Below, one piece after another: positions 1-17,401 of a DNA stretch of 64,000 nucleotides. Under the pieces are notes generated by a model. That model was not told where the DNA came from. It made no database searches and saw only the letters and a program-made list of their open reading frames with translations. Positions within the stretch are counted from its first letter, which is position 1, and each line of letters opens with the position of its first letter. Origin of the DNA: Rhodothermales bacterium (GTDB lineage: Bacteria; Bacteroidota; Rhodothermia; Rhodothermales; UBA10348); contig JANJTM010000027.1 in NCBI GenBank assembly GCA_024711125.1, positions 1 through 64,000 on the forward strand, written 5' to 3'. A program made the position numbers and the translations under genes.

Positions 1-5
1 AGACC

Positions 6-1196
6 ATGGCCAAGGAGACATTCCAGCGAAACAAGCCCCACGTGAACGTGGGCACGATCGGTCACGTGGACCACGGCAAGACGACGCTGACGGCGGCGAT
101 CACGCAGGTGCTGGCGAAGCGCGTGGCGGGGAACGCGATCCGTTCGTTCGATTCGATCGACAACGCACCCGAGGAGCGCGAGCGCGGCATCACGATCGCG
201 ACGGCGCACGTGGAGTACGAGACGGAGTCGCGTCACTACGCGCACGTCGACTGCCCGGGACACGCGGACTACGTGAAGAACATGGTGACGGGCGCGGCGC
301 AGATGGACGGTGCGATCCTGGTGGTGGCGGCGACCGACGGTCCGATGCCGCAGACGCGGGAGCACATCCTGCTGGCGCGCCAGGTGGGTGTTCCGTACAT
401 CGTGGTGTTCATGAACAAGGTGGACCTGGTCGACGACTCGGAGCTGCTCGAGCTGGTGGAGATGGAGGTACGGGAGCTGCTGTCGACGTACGAGTTTCCG
501 GGCGACGACATCCCGGTGATCCAGGGTTCGGCCCTCGGCGCGATGAACGGCGAGGCGCAGTGGGAAGACAAGGTGATGGAGCTGATGGCGGCGGTGGATG
601 CGTACATCCCGACGCCGGAGCGTGACCGGGAGAAGCCGTTCTTGATGCCGATCGAGGACGTGTTCTCGATCACGGGTCGTGGCACGGTGGTGACGGGCCG
701 AATCGAGCGTGGGGTGGTGAAGGTGGGTGAGACGGTCGACATCATCGGGATGCAGGAGGAGAAGCAGACGACGACCGTGACGGGAGTGGAGATGTTCCGG
801 AAGCTGCTCGACCAGGGGGAGGCCGGCGACAACGTGGGTCTTCTGCTGCGCGGCACGAAGAAGGAAGACGTCGAGCGCGGCATGGTGGTGATCAAGCCGG
901 GCTCGGTGACGCCGCACAAGGAGTTCGAGTGCGAGGTGTACGTGCTCTCGAAGGAGGAGGGTGGCCGTCACACGCCGTTCTTCAAGGGGTACCGTCCGCA
1001 GTTCTACTTCCGCACGACCGACGTGACGGGGGACATCGAGCTGCCGGCGGGCGTGGAGATGATCATGCCGGGCGACAACACGCAGTTCAAGGTGAAGCTG
1101 ATCGTTCCGATCGCGATGGAGCAGGGTCTCCGCTTCGCGATCCGCGAGGGCGGCCGCACCGTGGGCGCGGGCGTCGTGTCCAAGATCCTCGACTGA
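6..1196 (+). CDS. tuf: Elongation factor Tu
   Basis: GTPase that delivers aminoacyl-tRNA to the ribosomal A site. The 396 aa length is normal for the family. G-domain motifs are all visible: GHVDHGKT near residue 19, DCPGH and NKVD, followed by domain 2 ([13 protein letters not shown]) and domain 3. It sits just before rpsJ, the classic str/S10 junction. The start ATG lies at the window edge, so its upstream region and partners (fusA, rpsG, rpsL expected) are not visible. Synonymous codon choice differs from the ribosomal protein genes that follow: G-ending GTG, ACG and GCG dominate here, while GTC and ACC are commoner downstream. Confidence 0.99.
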
Positions 1197-1198
1197 GA

Positions 1199-1213
1199 CG
1201 GCCCGCCGGGTCG
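1199..1213 (+). promoter_or_regulatory. Small hairpin in the tuf-rpsJ gap
   Basis: CGGCCC pairs with GGGTCG (one G-U) around a GCC loop just after the tuf stop. There is no T-run, so it does not look like an efficient terminator. It is the first of a series of intercistronic hairpins through this cluster. Confidence 0.35.
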
Positions 1214-1258
1214 CATCGAAAGAGAAAAACAATCGGGCTGCACAAGCACTGAGTACCG

Positions 1259-1570
1259 ATGGCAACCAGCCAGAAGATTCGCATCAAGCTCAAGTCGTTC
1301 GATCACTCGCTGATCGACAAGAGCGCCGAGAAGATCATCAAGACGGTCCGGTCGACCGGCGCCGTGGTGAGCGGACCGATTCCGCTGCCCACCCGCAAGT
1401 CGGTCTACACGGTGCTGCGCAGTCCCCACGTGGACAAGAAGAGCCGCGAGCAGTTCGAAACGCGCAGCCACAAGCGGCTGATCGACATCCTGTCGACGAG
1501 TTCGAAGACGGTGGACGCGCTCATGAAGCTCGAGTTGCCGAGCGGCGTGGACGTCGAAATCAAGGTCTGA
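1259..1570 (+). CDS. rpsJ: 30S ribosomal protein S10
   Basis: Small-subunit head protein (NusE in transcription antitermination), 103 aa, the usual length. The loop residues around [25 protein letters not shown] are family-typical. It opens the S10 cluster, 62 nt after tuf. The bases before the ATG (gagtaccg) hold no purine-rich ribosome binding site. Unusually, the next gene is not rplC but a lipoprotein gene 22 nt downstream. Confidence 0.99.
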
Positions 1571-1592
1571 TCACGCTAAACCCCCAATCACC

Positions 1593-2054
1593 ATGCGCAA
1601 GCTGACCAGCATCCTGTTCCTCGCCCTGATCGCCTTCGTCGGCACGGGCTGCGATTCGAATGACGACCCGTCCGACGCGGATCTCTTCGTCGGCACCTGG
1701 GCCCTCACCGGCGTGTCGGACGCGTCGGGCGATCGCCTGGCCGACTTCGGAGCCGGTTTTTCTTCGATCACCCTCACGAACACGGCCGACGGCAACTTCA
1801 CGATCAACGTGACGCCGCGCCAGGGTCAGCCGATGGCGATCACCGGGACTTACGTCGTGGTGGAGAACGGCGAGACGATCACGCTGCGCGCGTCGGTGGG
1901 CGGCCAGACCATTCCGCTGAACTTCACCTACGACTTCACGAGCGACACCGTGGTCGCCCTGACGTCCGACACGACCACGGCGGTGCTGCTGAACAACCTG
2001 TTCGGCACGACGCTGCAGGGCCAGGTGACGATGACCGTCACCAAGGCCGGCTGA
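1593..2054 (+). CDS. Lipocalin-like lipoprotein inserted in the S10 cluster
   Basis: A 153 aa exported lipoprotein by sequence. It has basic residues at 2-3, a hydrophobic stretch at 7-16, then Cys20 in an atypical lipobox (GTGC, with Gly rather than Leu/Val at -3). Acidic residues follow the Cys (D21, D24, D25, D28, D30), like Bacteroidota lipoprotein surface-export signals. The mature part begins with a G-T-W motif (residues 34-36) and predicted beta-strands, resembling lipocalin-like domains of this phylum. No ligand can be assigned. It lies 22 nt after rpsJ and 61 nt before rplC on the same strand, so it is probably co-transcribed with ribosomal genes. Codon use is as GC-rich as its neighbours, so transfer is not obvious. 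Confidence 0.85.
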   Translation: MRKLTSILFLALIAFVGTGCDSNDDPSDADLFVGTWALTGVSDASGDRLADFGAGFSSITLTNTADGNFTINVTPRQGQPMAITGTYVVVENGETITLRASVGGQTIPLNFTYDFTSDTVVALTSDTTTAVLLNNLFGTTLQGQVTMTVTKAG

Positions 2055-2082
2055 ACCACTCCAACGGAACGCTTACCAATCC

Positions 2083-2099
2083 GGCCGCGGAAATCGGCC
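2083..2099 (+). promoter_or_regulatory. Hairpin before rplC
   Basis: GGCCG pairs with CGGCC around a 7-nt loop, ending 16 nt before the rplC ATG. Possible processing or translational-control element. The short stem could also be chance in GC-rich DNA. Confidence 0.3.
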
Positions 2100-2115
2100 A
2101 CATAGCGGGATTGCA

Positions 2116-2742
2116 ATGAGCAAGGGAATCATCGGCAGGAAGGTCGGCATGACGAGCGTCTTCGACGCCGCCGGCAACCAGATCGCCTGCACCGTCATCG
2201 AGGCGGGAGCGAACGTCGTGACCCAGGTCAAGACGGTCGAGAACGACGGCTACGAGGCCGTTCAGCTCGCCTACGGTGAGAAGAAGGAGAAGCGCACCTC
2301 GAAGGCGCTCCGCGGCCACTTCGAGCGCGCTTCGACTACGCCGAAGGCACAGCTCGTCGAGTTCCGGGACTTTCCGCTCGACGTGGAGCTGGGCTCGGAG
2401 GTGAACGTCGCCGACGTGTTCGCGGTGGGCGATCGCATCGACGTGATCGGCACCTCGAAGGGCAAGGGATTCCAGGGCGTCGTCAAGCGCCACGGTTTCG
2501 GAGGCGTCGGAATGCAGACTCACGGTCAGCACAACCGGCAGCGCGCCCCGGGCTCCATCGGAGCGTCGTCGTGGCCGTCGCGTGTCGTCAAGGGCATGCG
2601 CATGGCCGGCCAGACCGGAAACGTGCAGGTGACCGCCAAGAATCTGCGTGTCGTGAACGTGCTCGCCGATCAGAACCTCATTCTCGTCCAGGGCGCGGTG
2701 CCGGGTGCGAAGAACGGGTTCGTTGCGCTGCGCAAGAAGTAG
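2116..2742 (+). CDS. rplC: 50S ribosomal protein L3
   Basis: Early-assembly 23S rRNA-binding protein whose long loop reaches towards the peptidyl-transferase centre. It is 208 aa, normal length. The start MSKGIIGRKVGMTSVF and the loop APGSIGASSWPSRVVKGMRMAG are diagnostic. It is separated from rplD by 12 nt. The lipoprotein gene directly upstream breaks the usual rpsJ-rplC adjacency. Confidence 0.99.
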   Translation: MSKGIIGRKVGMTSVFDAAGNQIACTVIEAGANVVTQVKTVENDGYEAVQLAYGEKKEKRTSKALRGHFERASTTPKAQLVEFRDFPLDVELGSEVNVADVFAVGDRIDVIGTSKGKGFQGVVKRHGFGGVGMQTHGQHNRQRAPGSIGASSWPSRVVKGMRMAGQTGNVQVTAKNLRVVNVLADQNLILVQGAVPGAKNGFVALRKK

Positions 2743-2754
2743 GGTCCAACCACA

Positions 2755-3399
2755 ATGGAACTCAAGGTATACAGAAAGGACGGCTCGGAAGCCGGCCGCA
2801 CGGTGACCCTCGACGCCTCGGTGTTCGGGATCGAGCCCAACGACCATGCCATCTGGCTGGACGTGCGGCGCATCCAGGCGCATGCTCGGCAGGGCACGCA
2901 CAAGTCCAAGGAGCGCAGCGAAACTGCGGGCTCCACTCGCAAGCTGTACCGGCAGAAAGGCACGGGCGGTGCCCGCGCGGGTGACGCCAAGTCGCCGACG
3001 CGCCGTTCGGGCGGTACCATCTTCGGCCCGAAGCCGCACGAATACCGCCTCAAGGTCAATCGGAAGACCCAGCTCCTCGCGCGTCGCTCGGCTCTGGCCC
3101 ACAAGGCGCAGGCCGAGGCCATCCGCGTCGTCGAGGATTTCACGATCGACACCGCGTCGACCAAGTCGCTGCGCGCGATGCTCGAGGGACTCAAGGTCGC
3201 CGGTCGGTCCGTACTCGTGCTCACCGGGGCCCATGATGCGGCCACGTACCGCTCCGGGCGCAACATCGAGAAGGTGACCGTACGGTCGGCCGCGAACGCC
3301 TCGACCCTGGATCTGATCGGAGCCCAGGTCGTCGTTCTGCAGCAGGCGGCGGTGGATGTACTGGTGCAGCGCCTCGGCCAGTCGGCCGACGCCGAATGA
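2755..3399 (+). CDS. rplD: 50S ribosomal protein L4
   Basis: 23S rRNA-binding protein lining the exit tunnel. In gamma-proteobacteria it is also the S10-operon repressor; that role is not shown here. 214 aa. The tunnel loop carries RKLYRQKGTGGARAGD. The C-terminal half has the expected alternating helix/sheet (LVLTGA, LIGAQVVVLQQAAVDVL). It follows rplC after 12 nt and ends 23 nt before rplW. Confidence 0.98.
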   Translation: MELKVYRKDGSEAGRTVTLDASVFGIEPNDHAIWLDVRRIQAHARQGTHKSKERSETAGSTRKLYRQKGTGGARAGDAKSPTRRSGGTIFGPKPHEYRLKVNRKTQLLARRSALAHKAQAEAIRVVEDFTIDTASTKSLRAMLEGLKVAGRSVLVLTGAHDAATYRSGRNIEKVTVRSAANASTLDLIGAQVVVLQQAAVDVLVQRLGQSADAE

Positions 3400-3422
3400 A
3401 CCGGCCGTAGACCGAGAAGCAG

Positions 3423-3722
3423 ATGAATACCGATATCCTCATCAAGCCGCTCGTGACCGAGAAGATGACCGGGCTCATGGAGCAGGGTCACTATGCCTTC
3501 GAGGTGGCCAAGGGAGCGAACAAGGTCGAAATCCGCAAGGCCGTGGAGGCCCGGTACCCGGGCGTCAAGGTCAAGGAAGTGCGCACCATGGTCGTGCGCG
3601 GCAAGCGGCGCAGCCAGCTCACCCGTCGCGGCAAGGTGTCCGGTCGTACGGCCGGGTACAAGAAGGCCGTGGTGACGCTCGTCGCCGACAGCCAGCGCAT
3701 CGACTTTTTCGAGCAGATCTGA
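3423..3722 (+). CDS. rplW: 50S ribosomal protein L23
   Basis: Exit-tunnel rim protein that docks trigger factor and SRP. 99 aa, with the family start ILIKPLVTEKMT and the loop rich in basic residues (RGKRRSQLTRRGKVSGR). A longer reading in another frame overlaps this gene and is a shadow. Confidence 0.98.
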   Translation: MNTDILIKPLVTEKMTGLMEQGHYAFEVAKGANKVEIRKAVEARYPGVKVKEVRTMVVRGKRRSQLTRRGKVSGRTAGYKKAVVTLVADSQRIDFFEQI

Positions 3723-3743
3723 GGTAGGAGCCAAGCTCGTACC
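3723..3743 (+). promoter_or_regulatory. Hairpin between rplW and rplB
   Basis: GGTA-G-GAGC pairs with GCTC-G-TACC around a CAA loop (eight pairs and one G-G mismatch). It begins directly after the rplW stop and ends 20 nt before the rplB ATG. No T-tract follows. Confidence 0.35.
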
Positions 3744-3763
3744 CCCAGCAGTAGATAACCGTC

Positions 3764-4591
3764 ATGGCGCTCAAACAGCTCAAGCCCAATACCCCCGGAC
3801 AGCGGCAGCGCTCGGTTTCGGCATTCGACACGATCACGAAGTCGACGCCGGAGCGGAGCCTGGTCGAACCGCTGAAGCGGAAAGGCGGCCGTAACAACAA
3901 CGGTCGTGTGACCGTCCGCCATCAGGGTGGAGGCCACAAGCGGCGGTACCGCATCATCGATTTCAAGCGGGACAAGGACGGCATTCCGGCCACGGTCGCG
4001 GCTATCGAGTACGATCCGAACCGCTCGGCCCGAATCGCCCTGCTCGTGTACGCCGACGGGGAGAAGCGCTACATCATCGCCCCGAACGAGATCAAGGTCG
4101 GCATGAAGCTGCTCAGCGGCGTCGGGGCGGTTCCGGATCCCGGCAACTGCCTTCCGCTGACCCACGTGCCGCTGGGTTCGATGGTGCATGCCATCGAGAT
4201 GCGCCCCGGCAAGGGAGCGCAGATGGCCCGCTCGGCCGGAACCTACGCCCAGGTCACGGCCCGGGAGGGCGGTTTCGCCATCCTTCGCCTGCCGTCCGGC
4301 GAAACGCGCCGCGTTCCCGAGGGCTGCAAGGCCACCGTCGGCACGACGTCCAATCCCGAGCACATGAACATCGAGCTCGGCAAGGCGGGTCGCAGCCGGT
4401 GGCTCGGGATTCGTCCCAAGGTTCGCGGTGTCGCCATGAACCCGGTCGACCACCCCATGGGCGGCGGCGAAGGCAAGGCGTCGGGCGGACACCCCCGCTC
4501 GCCGTCGGGTGTGCCCGCCAAGGGCTTCAAGACCCGCAAGAAGAAGAAGGCCTCCAACAAGTTCATCGTGCGCCGCCGCGGTCAGCGGTAG
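3764..4591 (+). CDS. rplB: 50S ribosomal protein L2
   Basis: Core 23S rRNA protein close to the peptidyl-transferase centre and required for subunit joining. 275 aa. The diagnostic C-terminal motif [12 protein letters not shown] keeps the conserved His that corresponds to E. coli His229; the second His of the E. coli motif is Met here, as in many Bacteroidota. The tail is strongly basic ([12 protein letters not shown]). Confidence 0.99.
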
Positions 4592-4605
4592 TCGTCGTAT
4601 CCCCG

Positions 4606-4616
4606 CCAGTCACTGG
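4606..4616 (+). promoter_or_regulatory. Short hairpin before rpsS
   Basis: CCAG pairs with CTGG around TCA, 7 nt before the rpsS ATG. Weak alone; listed because similar stems recur in most gaps of this cluster. Confidence 0.2.
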
Positions 4617-4623
4617 ATCAGCC

Positions 4624-4905
4624 ATGGCTCGATCGCTCAAGAAAGGCCCGTTCGTTCACTTCAAGCTGCAGCGCAAGGTGGACGACATGAACCGCTCCGG
4701 GAAGAAGAAGGTCGTCAAGACCTGGAGCCGGGCGTCCATGATCACTCCCGAATTCGTCGGTCACACGTTCGCCGTGCACAACGGCAAGCAGTTCATCCCG
4801 GTCTACGTGACCGAGATGATGGTGGGGCACCGGCTCGGCGAGTTTTCTCCGACCCGGAATTTCCGCGGCCACGCCGGAACGAAGAAGGAAAAGCGCGGCA
4901 AGTAA
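4624..4905 (+). CDS. rpsS: 30S ribosomal protein S19
   Basis: Head protein of the 30S subunit near the A-site tRNA. It is 93 aa from the ATG that gives [15 protein letters not shown], the conserved family start. The open frame extends further upstream inside rplB, but that extension is not S19-like. The C-terminal [14 protein letters not shown] motif is intact. Confidence 0.98.
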
Positions 4906-4910
4906 ACCGA

Positions 4911-4927
4911 CCGGAGCCCGACTCCGG
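4911..4927 (+). promoter_or_regulatory. Hairpin between rpsS and rplV
   Basis: Perfect 6-bp stem CCGGAG/CTCCGG with a 5-nt loop, starting 6 nt after the rpsS stop and 32 nt before the rplV ATG. Confidence 0.35.
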
Positions 4928-4959
4928 CAGGCGGACCTTACGCCCGAATCAATCAGACA

Positions 4960-5331
4960 ATGGAAGCGAGAGCAGTCAGGAAGCACATCCGCAGCTCGGC
5001 CAAGAAGATGCGGCCCGTGGCCAACGTCGTTCGCGGCAAGCGAGTGCCGGATGCGCTGAGCACCCTCAACTTTCTGCCGCAGAAGGTCAACAAGATCGTG
5101 AAGCTCACGATCCTGTCGGCGGTCCACAACCTGATGGACCGGAACAAGGAGGAGCGGTTCAACGAGGGCGAGCTCATCGTGCGGGAAATCCGCGTGGACG
5201 AGGGGCCCGTTTTCAAGCGGTTCCGTCCGGCCTCGCGCGGTCGCGCCAATCCGATCCTCAAGCGCACGGCGCACCTCACGGTCGTCGTGGGCACGGCCGA
5301 CGAAGTGTCGACCACGGAATCCGAATCCTGA
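4960..5331 (+). CDS. rplV: 50S ribosomal protein L22
   Basis: 23S rRNA-binding protein whose beta-hairpin reaches into the exit tunnel ([18 protein letters not shown], near residue 85). 123 aa. A ten-residue Ser/Thr/Glu tail after the last strand is a small extension. The ATG is preceded by aatcagaca, with no ribosome binding site. Confidence 0.98.
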
Positions 5332-5360
5332 CCGCTCGCGCGGTCGCCATCATCGCAGGC

Positions 5361-5376
5361 AGACGCCGGAACGTCT
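5361..5376 (+). promoter_or_regulatory. Short hairpin before rpsC
   Basis: AGACG pairs with CGTCT around a 6-nt loop, ending 7 nt before the rpsC ATG. Confidence 0.25.
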
Positions 5377-5383
5377 ACGTCTC

Positions 5384-6193
5384 ATGGGTCAGAAAACCAA
5401 TCCGATCGGGTTTCGCCTCGGGGTCATCCGCGGCTGGAACTCCAACTGGTACGCCGAAAAGGACTTCGCCGAAAAGCTCGTCGAGGACGACGAGATCCGG
5501 CAGTACCTGAACGCCCGCCTCAAGCGGGCGGGCCTCTCGAAGGTCGTCATCGAGCGTACGCCGAAGCGGGTCATCCTGACGCTGCACACCAGCCGTCCGG
5601 GTGTCGTCATCGGTCGCGGCGGCCAGGAGGTCGAGAAGCTGCGCGAGGAGATCCGCAAGCTGACCAACAAGGACATCCAGATCAACATCAACGAGATCAA
5701 GCGTCCCGAACTGGATGCCGCCCTCGTCGCCCAGAACATCGCGCAGCAGCTCGAAGGCCGCGTGTCGTTCCGGCGCGCGATGAAGCAGTCGCTTTCGGCC
5801 GCGATGCGCATGGGTGCGGAAGGCATCCGCGTCAAGGTCTCCGGTCGTCTCGGGGGTGCCGAAATGAGCCGCACCGAGCAGTATCTCGAGGGTCGGGTGC
5901 CGCTGCACACGCTGCGTGCCGACATCGACTACGCCGAGGGTACCGCGTTCACGATCTACGGCACGACCGGCGTCAAGGTCTGGATCTACCGGGGTGAAAT
6001 CCTCGGCCGTCCGGACCTGAGCCCGAACGTGCAGGCGCAGCGCCAGCAGATGCAGCAGATGGAGCCCGAGCGTCGCCGCGGCGAGCGCGACAAGAAGCGC
6101 CGCAAGCGCACATCGACGGGCGCCCGGACCGACGCGCGCGGCGGCGAGGGTCGCCCCGAAGGCCGTTCCGAGGGCAAGCGCTCCAACAATTAA
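5384..6193 (+). CDS. rpsC: 30S ribosomal protein S3
   Basis: mRNA-entry-channel protein of the 30S head. KH domain with the GRGGQEV loop near residue 72, then the S3 C-terminal domain ([13 protein letters not shown]). At 269 aa it exceeds the roughly 230 aa of E. coli. The extra C-terminal stretch (about 218 onward) is low-complexity and highly charged, with Gln then Arg/Lys/Glu/Gly, and is probably disordered RNA-binding tail. Confidence 0.98.
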
Positions 6194-16699: not shown

Positions 16700-17401
16700 A
16701 TGAGACACCAGAACAAGGGATTCAAGCTCGGCCGGACGCACGCGCATCGCGAAGCGACCCTGGCCTCCCTCTCCACGGCCCTGATACGGCACAAGCACAT
16801 CACGACGACCCTCGCCAAGGCGAAGGCCCTTCGCATGTACGTCGAGCCGATCATCAACCGTGCGAAGGACGACACCACGCACAACCGCCGCATGGTGTTC
16901 GCCGATCTGCAGGACAAGCAGGCCGTAACGGAGCTCTTCACGGGCATCGGGCCCAAGATCGGTGACCGTCCGGGCGGCTATACGCGGATCGTCAAGTTGG
17001 GCCAGCGGGCCGGCGACAGCGCCGAAATGGCGCTGATCGAACTGGTCGACTACAACGACGTGCGTCCGGGCGGGGAGGCGGGTTCGCGCCGTCGCCGCAC
17101 GCGCCGCTCGTCCGGCAAGAAGGTCGCCGGTGCCGTCGCTTCGGCGAAGGCGGCGGTCACCGAAGTCGCGGCCAAGGTCGAAGAGGCCGCCGAGGCGGTC
17201 GCCGACAAGGTTGAAGCCGTCGCCGAGGCGGTCGAGGACAAGGTCGAAGCCGTCATCGACGCGGTCGAGGACAAGGTCGAGGCCGTGGCCGAGGCCGTCG
17301 AGGACAAGGTGGAGGACATCGTCGATGCCGTCAAGGGCTCCGACGAGGCTCCGGGCGAGACCGACGCTTCGCCGGAGGGCGAGGGCGACAAGAAGGACTG
17401 A
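16700..17401 (+). CDS. rplQ: 50S ribosomal protein L17 with a long hendecad-repeat tail
   Basis: Exit-tunnel-side 50S protein. Residues 1-120 are a normal L17 (MRHQNKGFKLGRTHAHREA). At 233 aa it is almost twice the core length. After a basic linker (129-141), residues about 141-213 form an Ala/Val/Glu/Lys/Asp helix with a clear 11-residue period (EAVADKVEAVA, EAVEDKVEAVI, DAVEDKVEAVA, EAVEDKVEDIV), ending in an acidic tail. The period also shows in the DNA as 33-bp repeats (about 17192-17332). Acidic L17 tails exist in Bacteroidota; the regular hendecads suggest a long amphipathic helix or coiled coil. It is the last gene before the cluster terminator. Confidence 0.97.
   Translation: MRHQNKGFKLGRTHAHREATLASLSTALIRHKHITTTLAKAKALRMYVEPIINRAKDDTTHNRRMVFADLQDKQAVTELFTGIGPKIGDRPGGYTRIVKLGQRAGDSAEMALIELVDYNDVRPGGEAGSRRRRTRRSSGKKVAGAVASAKAAVTEVAAKVEEAAEAVADKVEAVAEAVEDKVEAVIDAVEDKVEAVAEAVEDKVEDIVDAVKGSDEAPGETDASPEGEGDKKD

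Follow-up and report, generated by a model that had tools for sequence, protein, structure and literature searches.

A lipocalin-like lipoprotein gene between rpsJ and rplC in the S10 operon of the Rhodothermales

Ribosomal-protein operons are a model of frozen gene order, and the closest described departures from it are ancestral insertions in the rpoBC-str-S10 region of Gammaproteobacteria and Bacilli, among which the available text of one report names bfd-bfr, tusDCB and nrdHEF (PMC8046335). Lipocalin-like lipoproteins are likewise already known. Export signals of Bacteroidota lipoproteins consist of acidic residues directly after the cysteine (SDDDD, SDDFE or X-K-(D/E)2-X), shown, as far as the accessible part of the source goes, only in Capnocytophaga, Bacteroides and Flavobacterium (PMC5080379). 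In Salinibacter ruber, variable surface traits have been located in metagenomic islands and ascribed to phage escape (PMC2800850, in its available portion), and such traits also figure in the available portion of an account of genome variation in the species (PMC6060240). We describe here an S10 operon that holds a gene for a putatively exported lipoprotein, under selection and repeatedly lost cleanly. The open-access literature, with most subscription journals outside its scope, yielded no account of a lipoprotein encoded between rpsJ and rplC; as far as that literature shows, an order-wide exported lipoprotein in this operon, with a mature domain apparently replaced in one genus, is new.

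The window, a 64,000-nt stretch of DNA from a Rhodothermales bacterium (GCA_024711125.1, contig JANJTM010000027.1, our C7), starts at base 1 of its contig, just 5' of tuf, in an assembly of 3.8 Mb in 81 contigs that is 99.3% complete. Sequence and ORF calls agree with the original prediction of a same-strand, 153 aa lipoprotein ORF between rpsJ and rplC, 22 nt after rpsJ:

6..1196, + strand: tuf (EF-Tu), upstream of rpsJ (ORF call, named by recognition of the protein)
1259..1570, + strand: rpsJ (ribosomal protein S10), left neighbour (ORF call)
1571..1592, + strand: 22-nt spacer from rpsJ to the lipoprotein gene, without promoter or terminator match
1593..2054, + strand: lipocalin-like lipoprotein gene, 153 aa, ATG start (ORF, relatives, model, selection)
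1593..1649, + strand: signal peptide, residues 1-19, ending in the lipobox VGTG-C (sequence, lipobox in alignments)
1650..1652, + strand: codon of Cys20, putatively lipidated as judged from the lipobox, then Asp at +2 (sequence)
1653..1676, + strand: acidic linker DSNDDPSD, like a Bacteroidota lipoprotein export signal (sequence, published signal)
1692..2051, + strand: predicted lipocalin-like barrel, residues 34-151, eight strands and two helices (AlphaFold2, VIA-align)
2055..2115, + strand: 61-nt spacer from the lipoprotein gene to rplC, without intrinsic terminator on the + strand
2116..2742, + strand: rplC (ribosomal protein L3), right neighbour (ORF call, interval measurement)
2755-3399, + strand: rplD (ORF call)

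The encoded protein opens with the signal peptide MRKLTSILFLALIAFVGTG, in which Cys20 is preceded by LIAFVGTG, and continues after the cysteine with DSNDDPSDADLF; the lipobox and the acidic stretch behind it are present as claimed, four of the eight residues after the cysteine being acidic. Its strand, short gaps, freedom from terminators and conserved place mark the gene as part of the S10 operon, in which it lies 5' of ribosomal genes and secY. At the far end of the cluster, the last gene (16700-17401), which we take to be rplQ, encodes 233 aa with a long, repetitive, Ala/Glu/Val-rich C-terminal tail.

With the window protein as sole query, a search of the 114 genomes of the order found relatives in 44, mostly just 3' of rpsJ, whereas a contig scan for exact short peptides with the same protein alone had given no confirmed relative. 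An rpsJ query matched 101 of these genomes, and in those with a usable match we compared the segment from rpsJ to rplC, which gave 101 intervals from 100 genomes; the 14 genomes that contributed none comprise 13 with no rpsJ match and one (G091) with a weak, 32% match. Compared in this way across related genomes, as the original prediction had proposed, 62 intervals hold one same-strand lipoprotein ORF and 39 are empty. In one genome (G027) the lipoprotein gene and rplC are both present and the contig starts inside the interval, hence no gap length. Occupied intervals occur in ten of the 14 families that have a usable interval (f1, 14/18; f4, 2/2; f5, 1/1; f6, 5/5; f8, 3/3; f9, 3/3; f12, 3/9; f13, 22/27; f14, 3/3; f15, 6/6) and in none of the remainder (f2, 0/1; f3, 0/15; f10, 0/1; f11, 0/7). 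The same layout recurs in genomes of one to three contigs (G019, G112, G113, G066, G067 and G075), so that the gene order is not an assembly accident, and the concern that it might be confined to a single misassembled genome falls away. Empty intervals leave a gap of 5-108 nt, with the exception of G001 (L093), where 260 nt separate rpsJ from rplC with no convincing ORF, possibly a decayed remnant. G053 carries two rpsJ-rplC loci, one occupied and one empty (L060, L107), and is likely a mixed assembly.

Outside the order, 20 of 130 class-mates, chosen to cover families 16, 17, 18 and 20, were measured, and all 20 are empty, with gaps of 10-23 nt; the class-level profile search scored no more than 15 candidates in each genome. 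Among the genomes and loci sampled, a lipoprotein at the rpsJ-rplC site is seen only in this order. The premise that rpsJ and rplC form one of the most conserved gene pairs in bacteria needs a correction, as their adjacency is less rigid across Bacteroidota: of 80 named loci, mostly from that phylum, 75 yielded an rplC within the locus and five did not, and among those 75 there are ten with a gap above 300 nt. Seven of the ten gaps are AT-rich and contain no ORF above 51 aa that starts with ATG, two are from Hymenobacter, and one, L172, is from a member of the order itself. Within the phylum, then, the adjacency can be broken. The two Hymenobacter loci have an unrelated ORF (422 aa in L209, 439 aa in L241) between rpsJ and rplC, membrane-protein-like by eye, and in five loci of Chryseobacterium, Bergeyella, Kaistella and Sphingobacterium (L198, L200, L202, L203 and L248) no rplC was found within ~3 kb after rpsJ.

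The site proteins were gathered into three alignments, of 27 (A1), 20 (A2) and 6 (A3) sequences, and hhalign joins all of them (A1-A2, 98.9% probability, E 1.3e-17; A1-A3, 99.5%, E 3.2e-22; A2-A3, 96.7%, E 3.6e-10); by this profile evidence, the site lipoproteins of different families are one family. In a tree of RpsJ and RplC with 107 tips, from which G111 and G027 were omitted, the last common ancestor of the occupied genomes is placed at the base of the order, and one gain there followed by about eight losses suffices (nine Fitch changes). About a third of the intervals are without the gene, which is therefore dispensable in many lineages. A clean loss is seen between the genus-mates G096, which is occupied, and G097, which has a 15-nt gap; these two, like G082 against G079-G081, are sister genomes in which the occupied and empty states can be compared directly.

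The most conspicuous divergence of the gene is between two genomes that we take to be Salinibacter, G066 and G067, the latter presumably S. ruber DSM 13855. Between them the lipoprotein gene has a dS of 1.03 and a protein identity of 49%, against a median dS of 0.07 and a maximum of 0.17 for 24 flanking ORFs; these come from a mechanical list that includes some overlapping wrong-frame ORFs, and a window comparison free of gene calls agrees. Over 59.4 kb around the operon, 296 windows of 200 bp have a median identity of 97.5%, and the only two below 70% both fall in the lipoprotein gene's mature domain. Identity runs at 37-40 of 40 nt in rpsJ and is 36 of 40 in the block that spans the spacer and the start of the signal peptide; in the mature domain about half of the positions agree, and identity has returned to 38-40 of 40 within ~25 nt 3' of the stop codon. 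Faster protein evolution alone is no explanation, because synonymous sites diverge equally; replacement by a divergent allele would be the simplest cause, and such a replacement is, as judged from these alignments, clear in one pair, this one. No close donor allele was found. Among G062, G063, G066 and G067 the dS of the lipoprotein gene exceeds the highest flanking dS in all six pairs, and among four genomes of f15 (G108, G111, G112 and G113) it does so in three of six, all involving G112; it is at or below the flanking maximum in G064/G065, G109/G110, G108/G111, G056/G057 and G059/G060. G066 also lacks a 40-kb stretch of G067 (~1,361,300-1,401,800), which coincides with metagenomic island 3 of strain DSM 13855 (1,360,489-1,403,241) as given in the available text of PMC2800850.

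It is tempting to extend this pattern, and to regard the S10 operon as a universal site at which a variable surface protein is exchanged, with near-invariant rpsJ and rplC serving as homology arms and the exposed lipocalin domain swapped between cells and species. We think so general a role unlikely. If it were true, one of the genome's most variable surface proteins would reside in its most conserved operon, and its expression would always keep pace with growth. Should the Salinibacter pattern hold in populations, it would be a natural example of surface variation flanked by two genes that are among the most conserved, in an organism whose surface has been proposed to be under phage pressure.

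A lipobox cysteine is present in all 62 site ORFs (59 by pattern, three read by eye), and Asp occupies position +2 in 59 of the 62 proteins (57 by script, with G055 and G060 read by eye). From +2 to +11, acidic residues number 0-7 across the order, with a median of 4, and are few in the Salinibacter group. The proposed likeness to a surface-export signal stands for the window protein, and the near-constant feature across the site proteins is Asp at +2; the acidic run is weak in the Salinibacter group, which counts against a surface role where one is most wanted. In 383 kb of the source genome, a sample too small to carry weight, 14 lipoproteins were predicted, some clearly spurious, and only the window protein has Asp at +2. 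Paralogues elsewhere in the order suggest an outward location. One of them, from G108 of f15 (L303:4263-5174, 303 aa), joins the same domain to a type IX secretion tail that scores 26.8 bits against a cut-off of 27 (E 6.6e-6). A TonB-dependent receptor gene, recognised by Pfam match, directly follows the paralogue gene of G048, and in G050 the adjoining ORF reads as such a receptor, recognised from its sequence (paralogue and receptor loci L292:2798-5620 and L293:2844-5090); the S10 site of both genomes is empty.

In E. coli, Asp at +2 keeps lipoproteins in the inner membrane. Its near-constancy here might accordingly point inward, to a periplasm-facing, NlpE-like sensor or chaperone, held by this residue and monitoring, in fast-growing cells, how lipoproteins or the outer membrane are assembled, and Pfam NlpE is indeed matched by two of the 27 A1 members (best E 7.3e-4). 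However, no such rule has been established for Bacteroidota, the NlpE matches are weaker than those to Lipocalin_4 (PF13648), which 15 of the same 27 match with a best E of 7.2e-6, and replacement of a mature domain between near-identical genomes is not expected of a periplasmic protein; we consider this reading improbable, though it fares better than the other alternatives. An outer-membrane protein that is probably exposed at the surface remains our preferred reading.

The lipocalin-like label of the original prediction is backed by predicted structure. AlphaFold2, given the 27-row alignment, returned a barrel of eight strands and two helices, the latter at 49-55 and 127-137 (pLDDT 90.6), and given the Salinibacter-group alignment it returned the elements in the same order (pLDDT 86.1); both predicted models show the eight-stranded antiparallel barrel of the lipocalin-like (calycin-type) fold. 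In VIA-align comparisons, where matches within 1 Z unit were counted as tied, the first model scored up to Z 12.1 against Bacteroides lipocalin-like proteins (98-103 residues, 2.3-3.7 A) and 11.2 against potempin E (94 residues, 2.7 A), and the best matches of the second were potempin E and BACOVA_00364, both at Z 10.2. Pfam supports the label more weakly, through the relatives rather than the window protein, which matched only DUF7131 (E 0.025) and did not reach the cut-off for Lipocalin_4. TIGR03066 matches 20 of the 27 A1 members and aligns with residues 1-130 of the window protein (E 9.9e-8), which by that model is not a member because it scores 32.1 bits against a cut-off of 93.25. Pfam and NCBIfam together give the window protein no clear family.

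With potempin E among the top structural matches of both models, the protein might be a potempin-type protease inhibitor that neutralises secreted or envelope proteases. We find this quite doubtful, since the Bacteroides lipocalin-like proteins score equally, within 1 Z unit, no protease gene adjoins the site, and a fold held in common shows no function.

An independent promoter and terminator, had they isolated the gene, would have spoken against a link to ribosome synthesis. In 1-6000 no sigma-70 promoter match and no + strand terminator were found; seven terminator-like sites there are all on the minus strand, with 4.9 expected on shuffles. The Bacteroidota-type promoter core TANNTTTG has two matches in the 64 kb, neither near the gene. 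Across the 62 occupied intervals, rplC follows the lipoprotein gene at a distance of -7 to 138 nt (median 53); eight of these distances are 5 nt or less, and four are overlaps. A codon score conditioned on amino acids gives the lipoprotein gene 0.0156, against a ribosomal-protein median of 0.010, a value reached by 3.2% of 156 background ORFs and 4.9% of 1,895 random 153-codon windows; we rely on this corrected, less striking score rather than on a CAI of 0.832 (above 99% of 190 ORFs), which derives from a rough reference set. The ribosomal-protein-like codon choice agrees with high expression, a modest indication and not proof. The suggested tie to ribosome synthesis is therefore favoured indirectly, by the lack of + strand terminator and promoter matches, by the short gaps to rplC and by codon choice, from which we infer co-transcription.

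An exported protein encoded 5' of ribosomal genes and secY also recalls SecM, which controls secA, and the reading frame might be a regulatory leader in which stalling or export of the nascent chain controls rplC and the downstream operon. This is very improbable: none of the 62 proteins contains RAPP or RGPP, any R-x-P-[PGD] occurs in only two, the C-terminus is not alike between families, the gap to rplC is as variable as noted above, conservation covers the whole barrel and not the tail, and a search of 1-6000 on both strands against Rfam, at E up to 0.1, gave no match. A secretion-monitor arrest peptide was rejected as such, the conserved C-terminal arrest motif being absent from the 62 proteins.

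In 18 close pairs the dN/dS of the lipoprotein gene is 0.03-0.46, against 0.00-0.15 for rpsJ and rplC; by this measure the gene is constrained yet evolves faster than its neighbours, and because of it the gene is no neutral passenger. The original prediction had left room for a neutral insertion, one landed by chance in a highly expressed operon, and the clean losses in about eight lineages, among them the 15-nt gap of G097 beside occupied G096, would suit it, but purifying selection in 18 of 18 pairs (each below 0.5), retention in 62 of 101 intervals and a single gain kept since the base of the order make this the least credible reading of all.

We propose that the ancestor of the order acquired the gene in its S10 operon, at the junction of rpsJ and rplC, and that the gene was retained there from then on. 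Read-through of the operon would tie lipoprotein synthesis to ribosome synthesis, and the envelope protein would be supplied at a high level proportional to growth, with no regulation of its own. Once lipidated and exported, the barrel would sit on the envelope, most likely facing outward, and would bind either a small ligand or another protein. In Salinibacter, where signal peptide and flanks are near-identical, the mature domain would have been swapped by recombination through the conserved arms. Taken whole, the statement that this lipocalin lipoprotein resides in the outer membrane, probably at the surface, and is made in amounts that follow ribosome synthesis has in our judgement about an even chance of being right; our confidence in the lipoprotein nature, the fold and the ancestral place is much higher. 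The locus would serve as a natural example of envelope-protein dosage that may track ribosome synthesis.

The nearest structural counterparts are the Bacteroidota lipocalin-like lipoproteins of PF13648 (BACOVA_00364, BACUNI_01346, BACUNI_03039 and BACEGG_00036), which also form an eight-stranded barrel and reach Z 11.4-12.1 to the window protein's model; the window protein differs in having no Lipocalin_4 match of its own, and we know of no member of that set inside a ribosomal operon. Potempin E of Tannerella forsythia (8ehc, 8ehd) has the small lipocalin-like fold in common, at the Z scores of 11.2 and 10.2 given above, a likeness to predicted models, with a sequence identity of 10-12%. TIGR03066 (Gem_osc_para_1) is matched in sequence over residues 1-130, yet below its curated cut-off. 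The metagenomic islands of S. ruber span tens of kb, whereas here a segment of ~380 bp varies inside a core operon, and the main texts of PMC2800850 and PMC6060240, in the parts available, mention neither 'lipoprotein' nor 'ribosomal protein'. Closest in history are the insertions in the rpoBC-str-S10 region, which, in the available text of PMC8046335, likewise reflect a single ancestral entry of non-ribosomal genes, later retained by part of the descendants and lost or rearranged in the rest, and which occupy sites between operons or within the rpoBC operon. The gene described here lies instead inside the S10 operon, between its first two genes. The products of bfd-bfr, tusDCB and nrdHEF are cytoplasmic, in contrast to the putatively exported lipoprotein of the Rhodothermales.
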